Positions 19,944 through 30,203 of a stretch of DNA of 64,000 nt are shown here, one piece after another; position 1 is the first letter of the stretch, and every line of letters begins with the position of its first letter. The DNA comes from Muribaculaceae bacterium Isolate-104 (HZI) (GTDB taxonomy: Bacteria; Bacteroidota; Bacteroidia; Bacteroidales; Muribaculaceae). The notes beneath the pieces were generated by a model. It was not told the origin of the DNA. It saw only the letters and a program-made list of their open reading frames with translations, and did not search any database. The stretch spans positions 62,001 to 126,000 of the forward strand of contig RIBJ01000030.1 in the NCBI GenBank assembly GCA_003762715.1, written 5' to 3'. The position numbers were made by a program, and so were the translations under genes.

Positions 19944-21269
19944 CTATTTGTTCACACCGGAGCTGTTCAGCTTGCGCGGAAATCCGAAAATAATGGACAG
20001 CGTCACGCACACGGCGAGCGCCCAGGGGTATATGAGATAGCGCCACGGCTCAGCCGGAGTTATGCCGGCAAGGCTGGTGGCAAGCAGGGTCTGTGCCCCG
20101 TAGGGTATGAGACACTGTGTTATGCAGGAGCATGTGTCAAGCAATGACGCGGTTTTTCTCGGGTCGAGTCCGAAGCGCTCGGCTATATCGCGGCTTATCG
20201 AGCCTGAGGTTATTATTGCCACCGTATTGTTAGCCGTGCATACATTCACCGCCGCCACCAGCACCGCTATGCATGTCTGCGCGCCACGCTTGCCTGAGGT
20301 GTGGCGGGTGAGTGCCTGCAGCAGAAACGATATGCCGCCGGTGGCTTTCACCACTCCGAGCATCCCTGCCGCAAGAAGTGTTATTATGATGAGATTGCCC
20401 ATGGAGTCGATTCCCCCGCCCATGAATCCGAGCATATCTGTAGCCGATGTGCCGCCTGTCAATCCGAGCAGCAGGGTGGCGGCTATGCCGCAGCACAACA
20501 CCACTGTGACATTGATGCTGCACACAGCCATTGCTATTATAATAAGGTATGGCAACACAAGCCACGGTCGGTCGGTGGCTTCGGCTGAAACCTCTCCGAT
20601 GCCCGATGGTATGGCCATGTACGCGGCAAGGGTGACACACGCCGCCGGCACCGCAAGCCACAGATTGGCTCGAAACTTGTCGCCGGTATTGCACCCCTGT
20701 GTGCGGGTGGCGGCTATGGTGGTGTCGGAAATGAAAGAAAGGTTGTCGCCGAAAAATGCGCCGCCGAGCACCGCCGCCACTATAAAGGGGGTGTTTCCGC
20801 CAGACTCTGCGGCTATTTCTGCCGCAAGAGGGCTGAGCGCCACCACGGTGCCTACGGATGTGCCTATGGACAGGGATATGAAGCACGCCGCAAGAAAAAG
20901 CCCGGGCACTATGAACTCCGCAGGAAAAATGTGCAGGGTCATACTCACCGTGGCTTCCACCGCGCCTATCTCTCTGGCAAGCGAGGCAAAAGCTCCTGCA
21001 AGGATAAAAATCCACACCATGTACAGTATGTCGGAGTGTCCTGCCGAACGCGAAAACACTTCTATGCGCTCTGTCAGGCTCCTGCCTCTGAACACCGCGA
21101 TGCTCCAGATGCACGCCGCCGCGAGAGCCACTGCAATGGGTATCTTGTAAAAATCGCCTATCACTGCCGAAACGGCAAGGTATAGAAGCAAAAACAGCAC
21201 AACCGGCGACAAAGACAGGAGCCCTTTGCCTACAGATACTGTTTTATGCTGCGATGCTGATGTGTCCAT
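19944..21269 (-). CDS. nhaC: Na+/H+ antiporter, NhaC family
   Basis: This polytopic antiporter of 441 residues uses the ATG at 21269. A TTG four codons upstream is less likely. It has about 11-12 hydrophobic helices with conserved segments SLSIGTSVGTVVALSPLA, GGAFFGDNLSFISDTTIAATRTQG (acidic residues in the helix break, typical of NhaC) and VCTANNTVAIITSGSI. NhaC proteins expel sodium in exchange for protons. Malate/lactate-exchanging relatives (MleN) have the same fold and cannot be excluded. It is the last gene before the accessory cluster. Confidence 0.88.
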   Translation of the reverse strand: MDTSASQHKTVSVGKGLLSLSPVVLFLLLYLAVSAVIGDFYKIPIAVALAAACIWSIAVFRGRSLTERIEVFSRSAGHSDILYMVWIFILAGAFASLAREIGAVEATVSMTLHIFPAEFIVPGLFLAACFISLSIGTSVGTVVALSPLAAEIAAESGGNTPFIVAAVLGGAFFGDNLSFISDTTIAATRTQGCNTGDKFRANLWLAVPAACVTLAAYMAIPSGIGEVSAEATDRPWLVLPYLIIIAMAVCSINVTVVLCCGIAATLLLGLTGGTSATDMLGFMGGGIDSMGNLIIITLLAAGMLGVVKATGGISFLLQALTRHTSGKRGAQTCIAVLVAAVNVCTANNTVAIITSGSISRDIAERFGLDPRKTASLLDTCSCITQCLIPYGAQTLLATSLAGITPAEPWRYLIYPWALAVCVTLSIIFGFPRKLNSSGVNK

Positions 21270-21281
21270 ATTTAAGTGCAA

Positions 21282-21670: not shown

Positions 21671-22015
21671 ATGCAACACAGAAAAGACAACACGGATCTT
21701 GCCGAGTCAACATTGTTTATTGGAAAACTGATTGAAGAGGAACTGCGCCGACAGGAACGCAGTGTCACTTGGCTGAGTCGCAAAATTCACTGCGACCGCC
21801 GCAACGTCTATGACATTTTCAAACGTGCCGACATCGACACCAGTCTGCTGTATCGCATAAGTCAGGCGCTCCACGTTGATTTTTTTGAATGCTATTCAAG
21901 GCAGCTGGGCGCTCCTGCATTGCAGAGCCGCGTTTCTACGGCAACCATCTCTGAAAATACCCCCCCCCCCCCTATTGTTAGCCGCTTGATTATCAATAAT
22001 ATAGTGGCGGTGTGA
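21671..22015 (+). CDS. Small HTH (Xre-like) regulator with 3' poly-C tract
   Basis: This is a 114-residue protein. Residues 15-75 form a helical segment with a plausible helix-turn-helix (SVTWLSRKIHCDRRNVYDIFKR, then TSLLYRISQALHVDFFECYS) like Cro/C1-type regulators found next to Bacteroides accessory genes. The C-terminal ~30 residues are low complexity. They include TPPPP encoded by a run of 13 C at 21960-21972, then IVSRLIINNIVAV. Gaining one C would end the protein two codons after the prolines (TPPPPYC stop). Losing one would give TPPPLLLAA stop. It is the first gene of the same-strand accessory cluster and may regulate it. Confidence 0.65.
   Translation: MQHRKDNTDLAESTLFIGKLIEEELRRQERSVTWLSRKIHCDRRNVYDIFKRADIDTSLLYRISQALHVDFFECYSRQLGAPALQSRVSTATISENTPPPPIVSRLIINNIVAV
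21960..21972 (+). repeat. Poly-C homopolymer, 13 bases
   Basis: Thirteen consecutive C lie inside the 3' end of the HTH gene. Tracts of this length are prone to slipped-strand mispairing, and also to sequencing error. Confidence 0.9.
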
Positions 22016-22138
22016 AAAATAATTACACACATTCGGGACACATGCTGTCTCAAAAAACAACCTGTGAATATGCGCAATAAAGCTATTTTCGCATAAACGA
22101 ATATATATAAACACATCATAAATTTAATAATTAATATT

Positions 22139-22525
22139 ATGGCAAAGAAATCAGCTATTTCAGGAGAGTATATCATCACAGTTGAGGACAGTGGTACAGT
22201 CCGCGTATGCAAGATTTATGACAACGTCATAGGCTCGCTCCGCGAAATCGCCGCCACAAAAAACTTCGAAATCGACCCCAAATGGAACACTCAGGAAACC
22301 GGACGACGAATCGTCAAAGAATTCGGCGACGGCTCTATTGCTGAAATCGGAGAATATGTGGTGACACGCCGCGAAAACGGCAAAATCGAAACATACCGCA
22401 CCTACGCAAACACCCTCGGAGCGCTCCGCGAAATCGCTGCTGAAGTCGGATTTGAAATCAACGAAAAATCAAATACCCGAAACAACGGCTCCAAGCTCGT
22501 TGACTTCATCAATGCAAATAAGTGA
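22139..22525 (+). CDS. Hypothetical protein, two tandem copies of an unknown ~55-residue module
   Basis: This 128-residue protein has no signal peptide or membrane segment. It is an internal duplication. Residues 9-64 (GEYIITVEDSGTVRVCKIYD.., IGSLREIAATKNFEID) align with 71-126 (GEYVVTRRENGKIETYRTYA.., LGALREIAAEVGFEIN). Each copy looks like a beta hairpin, a linker, then a helix L-G-x-L-R-E-I-A-A and a strand. I do not recognise the family. The next gene contains two more divergent copies of the same module, which ties the two genes together. The start at 22139 follows an A/T-rich spacer after the HTH gene. Confidence 0.75.
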   Translation: MAKKSAISGEYIITVEDSGTVRVCKIYDNVIGSLREIAATKNFEIDPKWNTQETGRRIVKEFGDGSIAEIGEYVVTRRENGKIETYRTYANTLGALREIAAEVGFEINEKSNTRNNGSKLVDFINANK

Positions 22526-22533
22526 TAGATGTT

Positions 22534-23091
22534 ATGGCTGACAAAATTATAGAGGAGCTTACACGTCGCGTTGAGGAGCTTGAAAAGAAGTACTATGAGG
22601 TTAATTTCCCATATCAGAAACCGCCATATCCCTGTGTGGTGGAGCATATATGTATAAGTGGCTTGTATGGCAATTATGCGTTTCTGTTATCAGACGGGCA
22701 GATAAAGTTCAACCGAAGTTCAGCTTATGGTCAATCCTCCGGCTCTTTTGACACTGCTCCAACCACACTCGGTGCTATGGCTGAACGCGCCGGGGTTGAA
22801 GTGTCGCCTGCTGACATGAAGAAAAAGACAGTTGTCACTCCGAAGATTTTTGAGAAATTCGGAGGCATGAAATGGGCGTATATGGGCGAATTTATGGTTA
22901 ACGACTATGGTAACTTGTATAGCATCGAATCGAAATCGCCTGCAGAGATGTTTGACACTTTGGAGAGGCGAGCTGCTGAGAAAGGCTGGTCATACACATT
23001 CAAGGTAGATTCCTCAGCCTCTGTATGGGACAATGTCAAGGCTGCTTTCAATGCAATAGATGTAGCATATGAAAGTAACAAAAAATCCTGA
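22534..23091 (+). CDS. Hypothetical protein, coiled coil plus two divergent copies of the same module
   Basis: This 185-residue cytoplasmic-looking protein has an N-terminal amphipathic helix or coiled coil (about residues 4-22, IIEELTRRVEELEKKY). Two copies of the module seen in the preceding gene follow: about 46-92 (GNYAFLLSDGQIKFN.., TTLGAMAERAGVEVSP) and 118-160 (GEFMVNDYGNLYSIES.., MFDTLERRAAEKGWSYTF). The ATG at 22534 is preferred over a GTG at 22522 that overlaps the previous stop. It overlaps the next gene by 23 bases, so the two are probably translationally coupled. No function can be assigned. Confidence 0.72.
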   Translation: MADKIIEELTRRVEELEKKYYEVNFPYQKPPYPCVVEHICISGLYGNYAFLLSDGQIKFNRSSAYGQSSGSFDTAPTTLGAMAERAGVEVSPADMKKKTVVTPKIFEKFGGMKWAYMGEFMVNDYGNLYSIESKSPAEMFDTLERRAAEKGWSYTFKVDSSASVWDNVKAAFNAIDVAYESNKKS

Positions 23092-23842
23092 GTCTAAGGG
23101 AGAGCTGATTGAGGCACTGGCTACAGATGTCACAGAGTTTATTGAACGGGAACCGAGGTTGTTTTTCAATGAATGTGACATGCAGGTTCGCCTATGTGTT
23201 TATCTTCAGTCAACCGGTCATTATGAAGCAGTAGTTCCCGAGTATCGCATTCCTCTCGCTGAACTTGTGAGCCGTGGTGTGCCGGGTACAAGGGATGGCA
23301 AAAAATGGATAATGACCGGGGAATTCCCATGGAACAACGACATTTTTGCAGATATCGTGGTAAAGTCGCACGGACAATACGCATGTGTGGAATTGAAGTA
23401 TGCCACAGCCCAGCTGCGAAATTCGCTGACTCTGTTTGACGAGCCCCTGCTTGGCAATGAAGAAATCATCAAGACACAGGCTGCATCCAATCTGGTAATG
23501 TATAGTTACTGGAAAGATGTCCGCAGGATAGAGGTGATTACCGAAAAATTTCACAACGTGGCGGGTGGTGTGGCACTTCTTGTGACAAACGACAATACTT
23601 ACTGGGACAAACCTCGTGACAATGCGAAGTATCTGCCGTTTTCAACCCATGCCGACCGGGAAATCACACCCGGTGCGCTTGTCTGGAACGGGCAGCTGTC
23701 TTCTGAAAACCTGAAGTCTCACATGCCGTTCCACATATCGGGTCGTTATGTCTGCAACTGGCATCCGGCAGGGGTTACTGATGTTTCCCGTAAAGGTCAC
23801 CCGTTCAAGTATATTCTGAATATTATAAATAAATTGAAATAA
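23069..23842 (+). CDS. PD-(D/E)XK nuclease-fold-like protein
   Basis: This is a 257-residue protein of unknown family. Residues 34-49 (NECDMQVRLCVYLQST) followed by EYRIP, then FADIVV (Asp95) and YACVELKYA (Glu108-x-Lys110), reproduce the E..D..ExK order of PD-(D/E)XK endonuclease folds. The spacing of Asp95 to Glu108 is typical. No partner methyltransferase or helicase is adjacent, so it is not a conventional restriction enzyme. It overlaps the preceding gene by 23 bases and is followed 2 bp later by a lysine-rich protein. The fold call is motif-based and catalytic activity is untested. Confidence 0.6.
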   Translation: MKVTKNPESKGELIEALATDVTEFIEREPRLFFNECDMQVRLCVYLQSTGHYEAVVPEYRIPLAELVSRGVPGTRDGKKWIMTGEFPWNNDIFADIVVKSHGQYACVELKYATAQLRNSLTLFDEPLLGNEEIIKTQAASNLVMYSYWKDVRRIEVITEKFHNVAGGVALLVTNDNTYWDKPRDNAKYLPFSTHADREITPGALVWNGQLSSENLKSHMPFHISGRYVCNWHPAGVTDVSRKGHPFKYILNIINKLK

Positions 23843-23844
23843 TT

Positions 23845-24105
23845 ATGGCAGTTAAAACCACAGCCTCCGGCAAAATGGACAAGCGTACCAAAGAGTACAA
23901 GGAGCTTAAAGCGCGCCTTGCCAAGGCTCGCGCCGCTAAATCCAAAACAGCAGCGCCAAAGAAACCCGCCTCGACACTGAAAAGAACAGCTTCGGGCAAA
24001 GTTGACAAACGAACCAAAGAAGGCAAGGAAATTGCAGCACGCATGGCGAAAGCGCGCAAGGCAAAAAATTCACTTGCCAACCGCATGAAACGTCTTTTCC
24101 GTTAA
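23845..24105 (+). CDS. Small lysine-rich protein with two tandem repeats
   Basis: This 86-residue, strongly basic protein consists of two copies of a ~28-residue unit (residues 6-33 and 48-75: TASGKxDKRTKExKE..AR.AKAR.AK). An Ala/Pro/Lys linker (KTAAPKKPAS) joins them and the protein ends in NRMKRLFR. The composition recalls histone H1-like nucleoid proteins, but the repeated TASGK-DKRTKE motif is not one I recognise. It could bind nucleic acid or an acidic partner such as the adjacent TerB-like protein with its DEDED tail. It starts 2 bp after the nuclease-fold gene, in the same operon. Confidence 0.7.
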   Translation: MAVKTTASGKMDKRTKEYKELKARLAKARAAKSKTAAPKKPASTLKRTASGKVDKRTKEGKEIAARMAKARKAKNSLANRMKRLFR

Positions 24106-24124
24106 ATACAAACACTTAATAGAA

Positions 24125-24322
24125 ATGAAAACATCAAATGCAACCATAGGCTCCATCCTTGCCGCTATAATCTGGGCTGATGGAGAATACTCCGACGTGG
24201 AGCGCACCACTGTCAGCGAAATAGCGGAAGCTCTCGGTCTTACAGAAAAGGAACTTACAATGAACGTGACAGCCGCCCTTGTCGAACTCAAAATATGGAC
24301 GAGGCAAAAGCGACTGAATTAG
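24125..24322 (+). CDS. TerB-like helical protein, N-terminal part (frame-disrupted)
   Basis: This frame encodes 65 residues beginning MKTSNATIGSILAAIIWADGEYSDVERTTVSEIAEALGL. The A-x-ADG-x-x-x-x-E pattern followed by an LGL turn is that of a TerB-type helical bundle. After ALVELK the frame runs into an unrelated tail (IWTRQKRLN). Frame -1 continues naturally as NMDEAKATELAVKHAA and overlaps this gene from 24295. The disruption falls at a run of four A (24290-24293). One more A would give a single protein of about 144 residues. It is therefore either a frameshifted gene, a sequencing error, or a programmed -1 frameshift. Confidence 0.55.
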   Translation: MKTSNATIGSILAAIIWADGEYSDVERTTVSEIAEALGLTEKELTMNVTAALVELKIWTRQKRLN

Positions 24323-24555
24323 CAGTGAAACACGCTGCCAAGGTTGACGACGAAGAAACCGGCGAAATCTTTCAGGCGCTCCTGCAAATGGCATTGTGCG
24401 ACAATGTGCTCACCTATGGCGAGGTTCACAATCTCCTTGCGCTCGCCGATGCGCTGGACATTGACCAGGATGCTGCAGTGCTAATGTTGTGCGACCTCGT
24501 GAAGTCCGAACCCGAGCTTGAAGTGTCGTTTGAGCCGGATGAAGACGAAGATTAA
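24295..24555 (+). CDS. TerB-like helical protein, C-terminal part
   Basis: This frame encodes 86 residues with an ATG at 24295 inside the end of the preceding frame. It repeats the TerB-like pattern (IFQALLQMALCDNVLTYGEVHNLLALADALDID) and ends in an acidic tail (SFEPDEDED). The first helix (MDEAKATELAVKHAAKVDDEE) looks like the continuation of the upstream bundle rather than a natural N-terminus, supporting one original gene. If it is translated on its own, the two halves could still associate. The function in this cluster is unknown. TerB domains elsewhere occur in membrane-associated stress and defence loci. Confidence 0.55.
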   Translation: MDEAKATELAVKHAAKVDDEETGEIFQALLQMALCDNVLTYGEVHNLLALADALDIDQDAAVLMLCDLVKSEPELEVSFEPDEDED

Positions 24556-24579
24556 CGTTCAAATCATTAAAACACTGCA

Positions 24580-25086
24580 ATGGCAAATAAAGTAAAAGTT
24601 TATGGCAAAGCGCAAAACCGCACCGCACTTGGCATAGCCCATGCTTACCTGGTGATGTATCCTCACGCCACTCTTGAGGATTTGCGCAAAGCTTTTCCCA
24701 ATAACACTAATCCCGACTCCGGCGTGAAAGAGCTGTTTCTTCCGTTGGGCGAGGCTGAGACTTTCAACACAAAGATGAACCTGTACTTTGCCAAATCCGA
24801 TGAGGTGTTTGACCTTGACGACGGCTCAAAGGTAGCTATGGCTCAGGTTTGGTCAAAGCCTTCGTTCGAACGCATGGTGGAGCAGGGCAGCCTATACGGC
24901 ATCGAGGTGGCTGAGTTTGAAAAAACCGCGCACCCCGGTCAAAAAGGCGGCTACCGTCTCGAATATCTGAACGGCTATGTGCCCCCGGTGTCCGAAGAGA
25001 AGAAAAAGGGCGGAGCATGGGTCTGGATTCTCCTCGCATTGCTGGCTGTCGGAGCTATTGCATGGTTTGTCTTCGGAAGCAAGTAA
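24580..25086 (+). CDS. Tail-anchored hypothetical protein
   Basis: This 168-residue protein has no N-terminal signal and one C-terminal transmembrane helix (about residues 145-165, WVWILLALLAVGAIAWFVF). A lysine-rich stretch (SEEKKKGG) precedes the helix. The soluble part should therefore face the cytoplasm. It begins MANKVKVYGKAQNRTALGIAHAYLVMYPHATLEDLRKAFP and includes DLDDGSKVAMAQVWSK. It is of no family I can name. Membrane anchoring links the soluble cluster products to the ion-channel-like gene further downstream. A 146-bp gap follows in which I see no gene. Confidence 0.72.
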   Translation: MANKVKVYGKAQNRTALGIAHAYLVMYPHATLEDLRKAFPNNTNPDSGVKELFLPLGEAETFNTKMNLYFAKSDEVFDLDDGSKVAMAQVWSKPSFERMVEQGSLYGIEVAEFEKTAHPGQKGGYRLEYLNGYVPPVSEEKKKGGAWVWILLALLAVGAIAWFVFGSK

Positions 25087-25232
25087 CCCGAGCCTCTGAT
25101 TGTGGAGAGATAAGTATTTGTGCGCGATACCGTATATATACAGCCAATCGAAGATATAGAAGCGAGCTTCAATGCCGCCCAGTTTACACAAGGCAAAAAA
25201 CAAACAGCTTTAAACCATATTATTTAAATATC

Positions 25233-25547
25233 ATGGCAGATTTCAAGATTGAGGGCCGTATGAAAGTGAAAGGCCTGAAAGAAAAATTCAAAGAAACATT
25301 CGGACTCACCCTCCGTGTATATACCACACTTGCCTGCAAGTCACCCGCAAAGGATGACGCCACACTGGCATCCATCCGTGCCGAAGGTGCAAAGGGTGGC
25401 GAGATAGTGGTCGGCTCCAACATCCGTGTCGGAAACTTTGAGAAAAAGGTGGCTGACCTCTACGGCATAGGAGTGCAGGTGGCAAATGGGGCAAATACCA
25501 AATTGTCCAATGACGACGACACACTTGCCGCCGCCTCTAAGAAATAA
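25233..25547 (+). CDS. Conserved-looking 104-residue hypothetical protein
   Basis: This soluble alpha/beta protein of 104 residues begins MADFKIEGRMKVKGLKEKFKETFGLTLRVY. It then has a DDATLASIR segment, GGEIVVGSNIRVGNFEKKVADLYGIGVQVA, and a DDDTLAAASKK tail. The two DD(A/D)TLA motifs and the paired FGLTLRVY / YGIGVQVA strands suggest an internal duplication. The general pattern looks familiar from Bacteroides accessory loci, but I cannot name a function. The ATG at 25233 is chosen because the in-frame sequence upstream is intergenic in character. A strong hairpin follows the gene. Confidence 0.7.
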   Translation: MADFKIEGRMKVKGLKEKFKETFGLTLRVYTTLACKSPAKDDATLASIRAEGAKGGEIVVGSNIRVGNFEKKVADLYGIGVQVANGANTKLSNDDDTLAAASKK

Positions 25548-25562
25548 TAGTTCAAACACATC

Positions 25563-25604
25563 AACGGAGTGAAACCGGTTTTGACAGAAAGGTTTCACTC
25601 CGTT
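25563..25604 (+). terminator. Hairpin inside the accessory cluster
   Basis: A perfect 14-bp stem (25563-25576 with 25591-25604) with a 14-nt loop. There is no U-tract, so it may act as a partial terminator, processing site or mRNA stabiliser between cluster genes. Confidence 0.5.
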
Positions 25605-25624
25605 AATTAAAACAAGTAATTCAC

Positions 25625-25846
25625 ATGGCACTATCAGCATCAACCAAAGCAAATATCGAGAATCTGAAAGGCATAATCGAAAACCTTAAGCGAGACATCG
25701 AGGCATACAACCGTACAATTAAAGCCAACAACTCTAAAACCGGCAGCAAGTCGGCAGGAGAGCACGCCAAGCAGCAAAAGAAATATGCTCAGGAAAAAAT
25801 AAAAGGCTATCGCGAACAGATTGCAAATTATCGCAAGCAGGGATAG
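25625..25846 (+). CDS. Small coiled-coil hypothetical protein
   Basis: This 73-residue, highly charged, almost wholly helical protein has one helix at about residues 8-34 (NIENLKGIIENLKRDIEAYNRTIKANN) and one at about 48-70 (AKQQKKYAQEKIKGYREQIANYRK). They are joined by a Gly/Ser linker, so a helical hairpin or dimeric coiled coil is likely. It has no signal or membrane segment. It lies in line with the other cluster genes. Function unknown. Confidence 0.65.
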   Translation: MALSASTKANIENLKGIIENLKRDIEAYNRTIKANNSKTGSKSAGEHAKQQKKYAQEKIKGYREQIANYRKQG

Positions 25847-25893
25847 TATAGTATTAAATGGGCATGGTCTTTTAAACTGATATTCTCAAAAAA

Positions 25894-26064
25894 ATGAAAA
25901 TCCCCGGATTCTCTTTTTCATTGAAACGCGCTGTAGGCATAACGGCGGCAAAGCAGAAGTTTGCCCGCTCCACCGGCATTCCCACCTCGCGCGCCGGACT
26001 TGAGCGTAAGGTTGGCGCAATGGTTCTCGGAGCCATTCTCGGAGGCAGGAAAAAACGAAAATAA
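25894..26064 (+). CDS. Tiny basic hypothetical protein
   Basis: This 56-residue protein reads MKIPGFSFSLKRAVGITAAK and continues through FARSTGIPTSRAGLERKVG to a hydrophobic AMVLGAILGG patch and a GRKKRK end. It is strongly basic. The start is supported by an A-rich region just upstream and by a clean frame to the TAA. Six bases separate it from the next small gene. The organised composition and position within the run suggest a real gene, but there is no recognised family or function. Confidence 0.6.
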   Translation: MKIPGFSFSLKRAVGITAAKQKFARSTGIPTSRAGLERKVGAMVLGAILGGRKKRK

Positions 26065-26070
26065 AATAGA

Positions 26071-26205
26071 ATGGGAGATATAGTAAAGGCATTTCTGTAC
26101 ATTGTGACACTGCGCTGGCTGTTCAATGGCGGCTGCAAGACGCTCATTACAATACTGATTCTGTTGATATGCACAATCATGTATTTCACCGGCTCTTTTG
26201 ACTGA
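26071..26205 (+). CDS. Tiny membrane protein
   Basis: This 44-residue protein has one clear transmembrane helix (about residues 24-40, TLITILILLICTIMYFT) preceded by an amphipathic N-terminal segment (MGDIVKAFLYIVTLRWLFNGG). It starts 6 bp after the preceding tiny gene and ends 7 bp before the preferred ATG of the channel-like gene. An alternative TTG start of that gene would overlap it. The tight spacing suggests coupled expression, and it could be an accessory subunit of the channel. Confidence 0.6.
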   Translation: MGDIVKAFLYIVTLRWLFNGGCKTLITILILLICTIMYFTGSFD

Positions 26206-26212
26206 AAACGGC

Positions 26213-27928
26213 ATGAAAGAGCAATTGCGGCGGTTCAGGCACAGCCTTGGACTCGTTTTTGATGACAACCTCGGCACCCGGCAATGGTACAACATTGTCG
26301 ACTGGGTCATAGTATTCATGATACTGCTCAGCTCAGTGGAGATATTTGTCTCCACTATGCCTGTCGGCGCACAGGTAATGAGGGTTCTTGACATAATAAA
26401 TGAAGTGACGCTGTGGTTCTTTATCATAGAAGTGACGCTGCGCATCTGGGCTGCTCCCGAGCAAAATCCCCGTTTCAGCGGACTCAGGGGGCGGCTGCGC
26501 TACTGCCTGACATTCTACGGGTTCATTGACTTTGTATCCACATATCCGTTCATAATACAGTACTTCTGTCCGCTGCCGCTGGGCGCTTTGCGCATTCTGC
26601 GTACCGCACGCATCATACGCGTATTCCGCATCACACGCTATGCGAGCAGTTTCAACCTTTTATCTGACTCAATAAAAGAGAAACGCAACGAACTCCTTGT
26701 GTCAATGCAATTTCTCGTAATCATAACATTCATACTGTCAATAATGATGTATGTGTACGAACACAATGCCCAGCCCGAAGTGTATCACAACGGATTCAAG
26801 TCTGTGGTGTGGGCGTTCGCACAGTACATCGGCGACCCGGGGCAGTTCGCCGACACTCCTCCTGTAACAGTTCCGGGACGGATAATAGCCTGTATTGTCG
26901 GTGTCTTGGGCATAGCCATTGTAGCGGTGCCGGCGGGCATACTCGGCGCGGGGTTTACCGAGGCGATTGAAAACCGCAACTATGCTGCAAAAGTAACGGA
27001 AAACTCGAATAAACTGCGCAAAGCGTTTCAACGCAAACTTGACCGTCCATCCGGTTTTCAGGTAGTGCTGCCGTTCAACACAGTTGCGTCTTTGCAGGCA
27101 AAGCTGAGCATGACCACGGACGAGATAGTCAATGCGGTTAACTCCGAGCACGCTCCCCATTTCCGTCTGGTAAATCTTGCCTCATCCGTGCCCGTTTCAA
27201 GGCAGTCGGCAGACATTATCGCTGTAGAGCATTTTGTTGTCAACCGGTCTTATGGATGCATGATTGACCGCGGCTCTGCTGTAACGATAGTTTCCCCGTC
27301 AAGCCACATAGATGTAGGCATAGGCAACTGGGCTTTTTATCTCGCAGCTATAGGCGGATTCAATTATATAAGCCGCGAAGTCGGCGACCGAGCCGACATT
27401 CAGTCATTTTACCAGAATGACGATCCTGAAACGGTTCCGGGTTTGTCCGAATACCTTTGCGACTTGCAAGAATTCCTGAGCCGTGACGGGGCATGGTCGT
27501 TTACAGTCCTTGTGTCAAGCGGGGCTCTCGAGCCGGAGTATCCCACTCATGTTCATTTCTGCATCGGAGGTAAAAAAGGGGATGCCTCAACCGGCGGACC
27601 GGGACTTTTTGTCAAGGATTCAAAGCGTTATGAAGCCCTGTACAACGCGGTGGCTGAGAGTGTTCACACCCGGTTCGGACTTGAACCCGACCACCAGGTG
27701 TGTTATGACACTTCCGGCAATCGCATTTACCTGAGGCGAAACCGGATGCCCAATGAAAACAATGTCATTGTGAGAATTGAGTGGGCAAAAATACTCTGGA
27801 GTCTCGACCGAATTCTGATAGCCAAGGCTTTTGCCGAAGAGATATGGCGCGCCATACTTGGCAAGGAGATGCCCGCGCCGCCGCCGGAACTCAAAAAGAA
27901 ACAGATCGGATTTGAGGGGTACCTGTAG
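26213..27928 (+). CDS. Voltage-gated ion channel-like protein with large unknown C-terminal domain
   Basis: This 571-residue protein uses the ATG at 26213, or a TTG at 26198. It has six transmembrane segments: S1 about 30-48, S2 60-80, S3 97-116, S4 124-144 with regularly spaced arginines (RILRTARIIRVFRITRYA), S5 161-183 and S6 223-248. The pore loop between S5 and S6 reads VVWAFAQYIGDPG (198-210) instead of the TVGYGD filter of potassium channels, so ion selectivity is open. Residues 270-571 form a soluble domain I do not recognise. It is the last and largest gene of the accessory run and could be its membrane effector. Confidence 0.75.
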   Translation: MKEQLRRFRHSLGLVFDDNLGTRQWYNIVDWVIVFMILLSSVEIFVSTMPVGAQVMRVLDIINEVTLWFFIIEVTLRIWAAPEQNPRFSGLRGRLRYCLTFYGFIDFVSTYPFIIQYFCPLPLGALRILRTARIIRVFRITRYASSFNLLSDSIKEKRNELLVSMQFLVIITFILSIMMYVYEHNAQPEVYHNGFKSVVWAFAQYIGDPGQFADTPPVTVPGRIIACIVGVLGIAIVAVPAGILGAGFTEAIENRNYAAKVTENSNKLRKAFQRKLDRPSGFQVVLPFNTVASLQAKLSMTTDEIVNAVNSEHAPHFRLVNLASSVPVSRQSADIIAVEHFVVNRSYGCMIDRGSAVTIVSPSSHIDVGIGNWAFYLAAIGGFNYISREVGDRADIQSFYQNDDPETVPGLSEYLCDLQEFLSRDGAWSFTVLVSSGALEPEYPTHVHFCIGGKKGDASTGGPGLFVKDSKRYEALYNAVAESVHTRFGLEPDHQVCYDTSGNRIYLRRNRMPNENNVIVRIEWAKILWSLDRILIAKAFAEEIWRAILGKEMPAPPPELKKKQIGFEGYL

Positions 27929-28011: not shown

Positions 28012-28197
28012 AGAAACTGTTTAAATTTAATTGTGAGGTTCATTGAGAGTATTTTAAGAGGTGTTTTTACGAGTCGAAGAGGGAGCATAGCGAGCTATGT
28101 GACCGATGAGACTCGGTGAAAACTCCCCATAAAAGACCTCAAGGAAGCCACAAGATTCACTATATAAATAATTTCGAATTAAATTTAAACAGTTTCT
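28012..28197. mobile_element. Palindromic MITE-like element, short form
   Basis: The element is 186 bp, bounded by perfect 21-bp terminal inverted repeats (28012-28032 and 28177-28197). An internal core at 28081-28106 contains GAGCATAGCGAGCTATGTGA and recurs in the element at 47158. It has no coding capacity. No clear target-site duplication was seen. Its right end supplies the region just upstream of the porin promoter. Confidence 0.65.
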
Positions 28198-28210
28198 TAG
28201 AAAATGGCTG

Positions 28211-28218
28211 TATCTTTG
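28211..28218 (+). promoter_or_regulatory. -7 box of putative porin gene
   Basis: TATCTTTG ends 8 nt before the ATG at 28227, giving a very short or absent 5' leader. The -33 region falls inside the right terminal repeat of the MITE-like element. Confidence 0.6.
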
Positions 28219-28226
28219 CACCCGAA

Positions 28227-30203
28227 ATGAAACACAAAATCACTTTACTGGCAGTTCTGCTGGCTGTTGTATTGCCCTCCTTTGCAAAGTCGCCGGAGAT
28301 AGCTCCTTCATACGCATGGAAAATGCTCCCTCCGCTCGGACTGCATGAACCCGCCACCATAGACACCCTGCTGTGCAACTATTATCTGAAATCGGTGCCC
28401 TCCGATGTGTCACTCGCGTGGGCTTCGACTGGCAATCTCGGCAGCCAGGGCATAAACATGATATTTTTTGACCGCCCCGGCATGAGCGATTTTTTCTTTC
28501 ACGACGCTCTTGCCCACTGGCTGCCCGAGTTGGGGAACCATACTTTTTACAACACCAGGATTCCGATGACCCTGCTCAGCTATAATTTCGGAGGAGGCAG
28601 AGACAACTCCCAGGACAGGCTCACGGGTGTGTTTTCCGGTAATGTGAACAAGAAGCTCCAGATAGGGGCAAATATTGATTACCTATATTCAAAAGGCAGC
28701 TACAACAATCAGGCAGACAAGAATCTGGCTTGGGGTCTGTCAGGCTCCTACATGGGCGACCGCTACGAACTGCAGGCGTTTTACAACCACTACAACCTGC
28801 TCAACAAAGAGAACGGCGGCATTACCGATGACCTGTATATCACGGACCCCGAGCTGCTGCAGGGCGGCAACGCGTCTATAAGCCCGAAAACCATACCGAC
28901 CAGACTGACAGCGGCGCACAACAGGATAAAAGGTCAGGAGCTGCTTATAAACAACCGCTATAAAGTAGGCTACTGGCAAGTGACTCCGCCAAACGACACA
29001 GTGCCTGACGATACTATCGAGCATCGCGAGTACATACCGGTGTCAAGTTTCATATGGACTCTTGATTACCGCAAGGCGCACCACATGTTTCTGAATCAGT
29101 CGCCGCAGGAGGCCCGTGAGTTTTGGCGAAACACATATCTCCGCGATGACGGCACCAATGACGTAACAAGCTACTGGTCGCTGAAAAACACCGTTGGAGT
29201 GTCACTGCTCGAAGGCTTTCACAAGTATGCCAAATTCGGTATCGCCGCCTATCTGACTCATGAGATAAGGCGCTATAATCAGGCGGTAGACTCTATTCCG
29301 CTCGGTGCCGACCGACCGGAAGGGCTGACACCCTATCCGTTTGATGTCAAGCTGGCGCCAAAGGCTACCGAAAACCTGCTGTGGGCTGGCGCGCAGCTTA
29401 CAAAACAGAGTGGCTCTCTGCTGAGGTATGATGTTACCGGACGCATAGGTTTTGCAGGTCCGGTTGCCGGAGACATTCATGTCAGCGGCAACGTGTCAAC
29501 CCGGTTCAAGGTGTTCGACGATTCTGTGACAATAAACGCATATGGAAATTTCTCCAACGAGGAGGCTCCGTATCTCATGAAGAATTTTGTGTCGAATCAC
29601 TTTATATGGCATAATGATTTCGGTAAAATACGCAGGCTGCGCCTTGGCGGCTGGCTGACCCTGCCGCACACCGGCACATATATCAACGCCGGTGTGGAAA
29701 ACATTCAAAACATGATTTATTTCGGAGAAAATTGTATGCCGGTACAGAACGGCGGTTCCGTGCAAGTTGTGAGCATGACTCTGAAACAGGATTTCAAGGT
29801 GGGTATGCTGCATTGGGACAACAGGCTGACATTTCAGACAAGCTCTGATGACAGGGTGCTTCCACTCCCGAAATTCGCGGTGTACTCCAATCTCTACCTG
29901 CTGTTTAAAGTGGCGCGGGTGCTTCATGTGCAGTTTGGCGTAGACTGCGACTACTACACCAAGTACTATGCTCCGGATTATCAGCCCGCCACCACTACTT
30001 TCTATAACCAGAGAGAAATAAAATGCGGCAACTATCCGTTTATGAACGCCTATGCCAACATGAAACTTGGCAAAGCCCGTTTTTATGTTATGTTCAGCCA
30101 TGTGAACCAGGGGCTTTGCGGCAACAATTATTTTGCCATGCCGCACTATCCGATGAATCCCCGCCGGTTTCAGCTCGGAGTGTCGGTAGATTTTGCAAAC
30201 TGA
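28227..30203 (+). CDS. Putative porin, Bacteroidetes outer-membrane beta-barrel
   Basis: This 658-residue outer-membrane protein has a cleavable signal (MKHKITLLAVLLAVVLPSFAKS) followed by many alternating amphipathic strands (YNFGGGRDNSQDRLTGVFSGNVNKKLQIGANIDYLYSKGSY and similar). It ends in a strand RRFQLGVSVDFAN. It matches the large putative porins common in Bacteroidales. The ATG at 28227 is chosen because it yields the signal peptide directly and lies just after the -7 box. An in-frame extension to 28116 would run back into the MITE-like element. It is followed one base later by a solute-binding-like protein, probably in the same operon. Cargo unknown. Confidence 0.85.
   Translation: MKHKITLLAVLLAVVLPSFAKSPEIAPSYAWKMLPPLGLHEPATIDTLLCNYYLKSVPSDVSLAWASTGNLGSQGINMIFFDRPGMSDFFFHDALAHWLPELGNHTFYNTRIPMTLLSYNFGGGRDNSQDRLTGVFSGNVNKKLQIGANIDYLYSKGSYNNQADKNLAWGLSGSYMGDRYELQAFYNHYNLLNKENGGITDDLYITDPELLQGGNASISPKTIPTRLTAAHNRIKGQELLINNRYKVGYWQVTPPNDTVPDDTIEHREYIPVSSFIWTLDYRKAHHMFLNQSPQEAREFWRNTYLRDDGTNDVTSYWSLKNTVGVSLLEGFHKYAKFGIAAYLTHEIRRYNQAVDSIPLGADRPEGLTPYPFDVKLAPKATENLLWAGAQLTKQSGSLLRYDVTGRIGFAGPVAGDIHVSGNVSTRFKVFDDSVTINAYGNFSNEEAPYLMKNFVSNHFIWHNDFGKIRRLRLGGWLTLPHTGTYINAGVENIQNMIYFGENCMPVQNGGSVQVVSMTLKQDFKVGMLHWDNRLTFQTSSDDRVLPLPKFAVYSNLYLLFKVARVLHVQFGVDCDYYTKYYAPDYQPATTTFYNQREIKCGNYPFMNAYANMKLGKARFYVMFSHVNQGLCGNNYFAMPHYPMNPRRFQLGVSVDFAN

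Follow-up and report, generated by a model that had tools for sequence, protein, structure and literature searches.

A cluster of mostly short genes ending in a voltage-sensor-type channel gene recurs across Bacteroidales, and our analysis suggests that it may encode an envelope-tethered response system in which adaptor proteins feed a gated channel, a reading to which we assign a probability of about 0.5. The copy studied here lies in a 64,000-nucleotide stretch of the 2.8-Mb genome of Muribaculaceae bacterium Isolate-104 (HZI) (assembly GCA_003762715.1, contig RIBJ01000030.1, positions 62,001 to 126,000 of the forward strand), hereafter the window. Thirteen same-strand open reading frames (ORFs), named g01 to g12 with g06 in two parts (Table 1), fill positions 21671-27928 of the window.

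Recurrence of the cluster and its channel

We surveyed the loci around the best 80 of 159 channel relatives found in genome contigs. By title, all 80 belong to Bacteroidales groups (one is given only as "Bacteroidia") and are mostly gut metagenome-assembled genomes (MAGs); among the relatives listed, the closest channels with named records come from Duncaniella and Muribaculaceae MAGs. At least one of nine partner families lies near the channel in 76 loci and at least three in 55, and for the 50 loci with at least 5 kb of upstream DNA the corresponding numbers are 47 and 41. The first-pass annotation had proposed one multi-gene system, and its genes are indeed linked rather than scattered in relatives, though four loci carry none of the nine families. 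Present in the 80 loci were g08 (57), g10 (47), a coiled-coil family termed CC2 (43), g07 (42), the pyroglutamyl peptidase Pcp (40), g02 (30), TerB (28), g05 (26), a Ser/Thr kinase (20), g04 (19), g01 (14) and a KAP NTPase family (7). These counts were taken from all ORFs; the greedy gene picking lost the channel in four loci plus some short genes, and the Pfam labels of families rest mostly on one scanned representative each. Gene order is similar in many Muribaculaceae loci, with variable content and slots. All 16 gene families found in at least 12 loci are cluster genes or sited with them (one, F11, sits mostly beside the kinase), indicating that the chromosomal flanks vary between loci.

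Across 118 related genomes, a full-type channel (at least 45% identity over most of its length) occurs in only ten, the window's own genome included and one match being partial. In the same 118, g08 is present in 17, g02 in 11 and g04 in five; the ten channel genomes account for nine, nine and four of these. Co-occurrence with the channel gives P = 2.5e-8 for g08 and 6e-11 for g02, relatedness being ignored.

The g12 protein matches Ion_trans (E 1.2e-22), and its channel part also matches phrog_7872, whose function is not annotated (9.3e-27). Like KCNQ/Kv and bacterial Ion_trans channels, it has a voltage sensor (KCNQ-like) with arginines at three-residue spacing, and a six-helix pore. It differs from them in its large C-terminal domain of predicted hydrolase fold and in its pore, where QYxGDPG replaces the K+ signature. 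For the alignment we took the 77 family ORFs (of 82) that measure 540-620 aa, reduced them to 57 at 85% identity and added the window copy: QYxGDPG is present in 56 of the 58 channels, and a K+ selectivity filter of T-V-G-Y-G type (pattern T[VIL]G[YF]G) occurs in one only. In six of the 80 loci (L137, L141, L143, L145, L169 and L176) two channel genes stand close together, perhaps encoding a two-subunit channel.

The predicted fold of the C-terminal domain is that of N-formylglutamate and poly-gamma-glutamate hydrolases, in a comparison that reaches barely beyond the few matches it listed. Pfam and PDB sequence searches gave no credible function for this domain, and hhalign against five FGase relatives returned nothing, a weak result in view of the diversity of those five. 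FGase is found in five of the 118 relatives and Gamma_PGA_hydro in none, leaving no near catalytic relative for comparison. PghP and PghL, which share the predicted overall fold, use a zinc set of two His and one Glu in the part of the literature consulted (PMC6506827); this canonical set is not evident in the C-terminal domain, where, in the sequence alignment, only H448 reaches 90% conservation among the His columns (56/58; H498 50/58, H340 41/58).

This domain is a module in its own right. It is fused to a Ser/Thr kinase in two loci (L042:8476-10344, 622 aa; L043:4366-6028, over two ORFs), is joined to a pore that lacks the voltage sensor in L040 (420 aa; pore recognised by eye, no Pfam match), and is free-standing (299 aa) beside a Pcp gene in L041.

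Adaptor-like modules and the envelope protein

The g02 and g08 modules look like shared adaptors, since in relatives they are fused to varied domains. We found 26 fusion ORFs that combine g02 or g08 modules with at least 70 extra residues, the partners being OmpA, PspC, LRR_5, WG repeats and PDDEXK_4; PspC is joined to g08 in one relative (L126). Both modules recur on several proteins inside single loci of relatives, where they appear in g07-type proteins as well as in others that are soluble or membrane-bound. Neither matches a Pfam family at E 0.1. An AlphaFold2 (AF2) model of one g02 module from a relative has three strands followed by two helices; structure comparison named no relative for g02 but covers mostly residues 1-91, and we hence do not take it as a new fold. 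The g08 protein, conserved up to 88% identity, is weakly ubiquitin-like, with a possible beta-grasp fold.

In most relatives g07 consists of an N-terminal domain, one membrane helix and an OmpA domain of the peptidoglycan-binding type (E 2.3e-19 in L113). The window copy is cut short: its DNA matches relatives of 302-307 aa up to residue 209-213, past the stop codon and as far as 25197-25203, and then ends. The tail-anchored protein of the first-pass annotation is thus a product of truncation, since those relatives continue into OmpA. The OmpA domain is also absent from g07 in L106 and L118, and some loci therefore lack the anchor.

The TerB-like gene named in the first-pass annotation does contain a TerB domain, and reading through its two overlapping ORFs brings the match above the cut-off (5.1e-7, 30.4 bits). 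In relatives' loci all 22 genes of the family have TerB as one ORF (134-143 aa), and the split is therefore peculiar to this genome or its assembly. Of the proposed single system, the parts that travel together, the adaptor-like soluble proteins, the membrane or peptidoglycan protein and a channel as likely effector hold up, while the tail anchor does not and the TerB gene is broken in this copy. The split TerB and the loss of OmpA from g07 suggest possible decay; the window copy may be dying, half active or, for TerB, misassembled. In another genome (G011) the cluster, otherwise largely kept, ends in a 60-aa ORF at the channel position (L088:5050-5232) that by eye resembles a channel piece, with masked bases nearby; this is perhaps a second decaying copy.

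Gene layout, genomic site and remaining genes

The first-pass annotation described about twelve tightly spaced, partly overlapping genes on one strand that run from a small helix-turn-helix (HTH) gene to a channel-like protein with a large extra domain, next to a palindromic element. The layout is confirmed, with 13 ORFs, or twelve genes if the split TerB is taken as one, and 12 of the 13 are below 260 aa. ORFs overlap at g03/g04 and within TerB; gaps of 2-24 bp separate g02-g03, g04-g05, g05-g06, g06-g07, g10-g11 and g11-g12; wider gaps lie at g01-g02 (123 bp), g07-g08 (146 bp), g08-g09 (77 bp) and g09-g10 (47 bp). The last gene indeed carries about 290 residues beyond its Ion_trans part. The first is small as described, with a weak HTH assignment. 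The palindromic element exists too, as a miniature inverted-repeat transposable element (MITE)-like dispersed repeat that is probably not part of the system. A hairpin between g08 and g09 may separate two transcripts. A Bacteroidetes-type promoter pattern gave seven matches in the window, none of them upstream of g01.

Upstream of the cluster lies a Na+/H+ antiporter-family gene (19944-21281); the downstream neighbour is a Porin_10 gene (28116-30203). Among 16 relatives examined around the Porin_10 gene, three (G026, G020 and G018; loci L223-L225) retain both window flanks. Their gap of about 1.3-1.6 kb holds one transporter-like gene (major facilitator superfamily from reading of the DNA) and no match to a cluster protein better than E 0.28, so the cluster is exchangeable. 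Its GC content is 0.478 against 0.505 for the window, and 2.6% of equal windows are as low.

Only g12 and the split TerB have clear Pfam kin among the 13 window proteins. Pfam, NCBIfam, PHROGs and PDB sequence searches gave no credible function for g02, g03, g04, g05 and g08; for g09, g10 and g11 the searches covered Pfam only. A PADLOC scan of ten of the 13 ORFs (g09-g11 excluded) returned weak matches only, the best being PDC-S48 (E 2e-4) for the TerB ORFs. The nuclease motif of g04 is well kept, with D95, E108 and K110 unchanged across all 17 aligned proteins, and g04 has no Pfam match above the cut-off and no PDB sequence match of weight. The position of g03 is taken in several relatives by a g02 module plus a variable domain. 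Weak matches were set aside as chance: DUF1923 for g04 (0.006), ribosomal L13 (E 0.004) and phrog_16816 (6.4e-4) for g05, and coiled-coil models for g09 (best E 0.0017).

Table 1 Features of the cluster and its immediate surroundings (positions in the window)
Feature	Position	Strand	Remarks
g01, small HTH-like regulator, 114 aa	21671-22015	+	HTH_3 E 0.091, below cut-off; homologues in 14/80 loci
g02, two tandem ~60-aa modules, adaptor-like	22139-22525	+	no Pfam match; module in 30/80 loci; fusions with further domains in relatives
g03, 185 aa, coiled-coil-like start by eye, variable slot	22534-23091	+	no match in 80 loci
g04, PD-(D/E)XK-like nuclease by motif, 257 aa	23069-23842	+	homologues in 19/80 loci
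g05, short Lys/Arg-rich repeat protein, 86 aa	23845-24105	+	homologues in 26/80 loci, often beside TerB
g06a, TerB-like gene part 1	24125-24322	+	TerB E 5.8e-4, 20.6 bits (cut-off 24.4); corresponds to residues 1-62 of a 142-aa relative
g06b, TerB-like gene part 2, other frame	24295-24555	+	TerB E 0.062; aligns with residues 56-142 of the same 142-aa relative
g07, N-terminal domain and one transmembrane helix, cut short	24580-25086	+	aligned with ~305-aa relatives running on into OmpA domain
Remnant of g07 linker and OmpA start, non-coding	25087-25203	+	tblastn of L114 g07 (307 aa) reaches residue 213 at 25203
g08, two similar beta-alpha-beta halves, adaptor-like	25233-25547	+	weakly ubiquitin-like
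14-bp perfect hairpin	25563-25604	+	between g08 and g09; terminator- or attenuator-like; read by eye, 14-nt loop beyond limits of hairpin scan
g09, small coiled-coil-like protein	25625-25846	+	homologues in 4/80 loci; many relatives have family CC2 in this slot
g10, short basic protein, 56 aa	25894-26064	+	no Pfam match; homologues in 47/80 loci
g11, single-transmembrane microprotein, 44 aa	26071-26205	+	homologue in 1/80 loci by blastp; similar 50-aa gene family in 7
g12, 571 aa	26213-27928	+	channel ~residues 1-282, C-terminal domain ~310-551
MITE-like dispersed repeat, 21-bp perfect inverted ends	28012-28197	.	7 near-full-length genome copies including this one, 82-100% identity, plus fragments

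Possible roles and relation to known systems

In the envelope-tethered response system that we propose, g07 would sense disturbance of the wall or membrane, and the g02 and g08 modules would assemble a signalling complex along with TerB, the small basic proteins and the coiled-coil proteins. Either the complex itself or a small ligand on the C-terminal domain would gate the g12 channel, and the resulting ion flux (depolarisation or K+ loss) and the g04 nuclease would bring about protective slowing or cell suicide. In loci with Pcp, this enzyme would probably make or remove the ligand. The role is read from gene content and a predicted fold, from which we infer all the later steps. Both a stress response and phage defence would fit: the PspC, OmpA, DUF4230 and DUF1232 partners favour envelope stress, and the row in which CC2 and a g08 fusion follow a PvuRts1I-like endonuclease, present in four related loci, favours defence.

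Several observations weigh against the proposed system. The putative coupling between adaptors and channel is suggested by gene linkage, and no g02 or g08 module was seen on any channel protein in the fusion survey. The pore of g12 has a motif that does not resemble the one in K+ channels, and the g12 model is least sure in S4 and the pore (predicted local distance difference test scores of 62-74 at residues 121-150 and 191-220). The tie between the C-terminal domain and hydrolases comes from predicted fold only, sequence profiles giving none. OmpA is missing from g07 in the three loci named above, four of the 80 channel loci have none of the nine partner families (one of the four is a 3.5-kb contig), and the lower GC and the empty site suggest acquisition rather than function.

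The cluster could instead be an anti-phage system, a possible though less than probable alternative, in which the trigger is phage damage to the wall or membrane and infection is halted by the channel and nuclease through dormancy or suicide, as in Zorya. In four loci of the window's own family (L092-L095; L092:7380-9657), an endonuclease, CC2 and a 291-292-aa g08 fusion stand in a row, with g10 detected by blastp in three of them (not L093). The L094 endonuclease, the one scanned with Pfam, is PvuRts1I-like with an SRA domain, and the other three are 80-92% alike; no channel was found in the DNA examined around this mini-operon. PvuRts1I-like genes elsewhere speak against the link, as they occur in two of 393 genomes and both loci, from other families, lack the cassette. 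Relatives' clusters also hold nucleases, kinases like mad6/PD-T4-6 and a KAP NTPase like PifA/PDC-S20, and one g07 relative resembles ZorB1 in its OmpA part (E 1.8e-6); the kinase and KAP matches concern broad enzyme families and decide little. Among the ten window proteins scanned, no known defence model appeared beyond the weak TerB match. No channel relative was found in viral contigs and no C-terminal domain in phages, and eight plasmids gave no more than partial matches, all to generic ion transporters. Of 237 flank genes, 95 were chosen and 60 scanned; 47 PADLOC models match among these 60 proteins, each of the 25 models listed with one or two proteins, and we count this uncontrolled scan neither way. 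Because the only direct link to phage defence is one lineage of PvuRts1I-like loci, we do not prefer this explanation.

Ordinary ion, osmotic or pH homeostasis, with a constitutive channel regulator and the small proteins as assembly factors, appears distinctly unlikely. An antiporter-family gene does adjoin the cluster, the genome collection holds at least 159 channel relatives, and the channel stands without any of the nine partners in four of 80 loci. Such a housekeeping role fits poorly with the patchy presence of the full-type channel, the different gene at the same site in three relatives, the repeat-rich and nuclease partners, and the fusion of the C-terminal domain to a kinase. It is very unlikely that the cluster is a loose accretion of short selfish or phage-derived genes at a variable site with no single function. 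Such an accretion would be in keeping with the variable gene content and slot, the two damaged genes in this copy and the MITE-like repeat next door, but not with the conservation of g08, the similar order in many Muribaculaceae loci, the modules common to several genes, or the catalytic motifs retained in Pcp (Cys 39/39, His 37/39, Glu pattern 27/39) and in the kinase (20/20).

It is tempting to speculate on a more specific, though unlikely, form of the system, in which the channel senses damage through pyroglutamyl peptides that open it via the C-terminal domain and is switched off by cytosolic Pcp. Most Sec-exported proteins of Bacteroidetes start with pyroglutamate (the Q-rule), amounting to about 71% of signal peptidase I substrates according to the part of PMC10653852 used here. 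A breach of the envelope would let pyroglutamyl fragments into the cytosol, where they would bind the C-terminal domain with its predicted glutamate-hydrolase fold, which is also found on a kinase, and the channel would open; Pcp, a neighbour in about half of the loci, would clear the signal, and the adaptor modules would connect the channel to peptidoglycan sensors and nucleases. Of 39 Pcp loci, 27 have the peptidase gene one position away from the channel gene and four more have it two positions away (31 of 39 within two), and by a simple count none of the 39 peptidases has a hydrophobic signal-like start. A possible built-in signal source would be F13, a beta-barrel protein of outer-membrane type (Phenol_MetA_deg in L137) encoded in 14 loci (for example L128:7381-8136, L137:6164-6919 and L139:6733-7494) and adjoining the channel or Pcp in ten. 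All 14 have a small residue and then Gln at the expected end of the signal peptide (a pattern only, no signal-peptide predictor), and the start after Gln, such as FTADRPGASTGP, is conserved in eight. Against this stands the high share of Gln expected from the phylum's rule anyway, and the presence of Pcp in only 40 of the 80 loci. The window genome has no Pcp, so the switch-off there must differ.

Zorya, made up of ZorAB with ZorCD or ZorE, exemplifies how peptidoglycan binding, ion flow and a nuclease can make up one defence, in the portion of its description consulted (PMC11890865). In a similar way, the cluster may bring together an OmpA/MotB-like peptidoglycan-binding part, an ion-conducting membrane part and a nuclease in one locus. 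It differs in that no ZorA-like (MotA-like) protein was found: g12 matches no PADLOC model at E 0.1 and is an Ion_trans channel of the six-helix voltage-sensor type, encoded by a separate gene. The ZorB1 match comes from the g07 of L113 and covers residues 236-306 only, and the window copy has lost OmpA. Zorya, as far as that portion describes it, is without TerB, Pcp and g02/g08 modules.

Effector-associated domain (EAD)-coupled conflict systems offer a second parallel. In the consulted part of Kaur et al. 2020 (PMC7159879), small non-enzymatic modules link core, effector and signalling proteins of adjacent genes, and some of these systems have transmembrane plus OmpA proteins. The cluster resembles them in that neighbouring genes encode proteins with a small module in common, as for g02 and g08 in relatives. 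It differs in its core, since Pfam detects neither vWA-MoxR nor STAND nor a similar NTPase in any of the 13 window proteins; a KAP NTPase occurs only in the few relatives' loci counted above.

The TerB gene and the PspC-g08 fusion also recall phage-shock and Ter-type stress systems. In the latter, TerB is accompanied by TerC, TerD/TerZ or vWA partners, whereas none of the 13 window proteins has a PspA, TerC, TerD or vWA Pfam match.

Among the papers listed by searches of the open-access, Creative Commons-licensed literature of PubMed Central, we found no description of this cluster. With no Pfam family for its key parts and no PADLOC match of weight, it falls under no known family and would work like adaptor-coupled, channel-using systems; by analogy, its logic is best read as comparable to that of Zorya and the EAD-coupled systems, built from other parts. 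Together, these data describe a multi-gene system in many Bacteroidales, without a name in the libraries and papers searched, that joins a voltage-sensor channel, an enzyme fold of ligand-binding type, peptidoglycan-anchored proteins and two unnamed adaptor-like modules. If our reading is true, these bacteria would possess a channel-based alarm comparable to Zorya or to damage sensing in animals.

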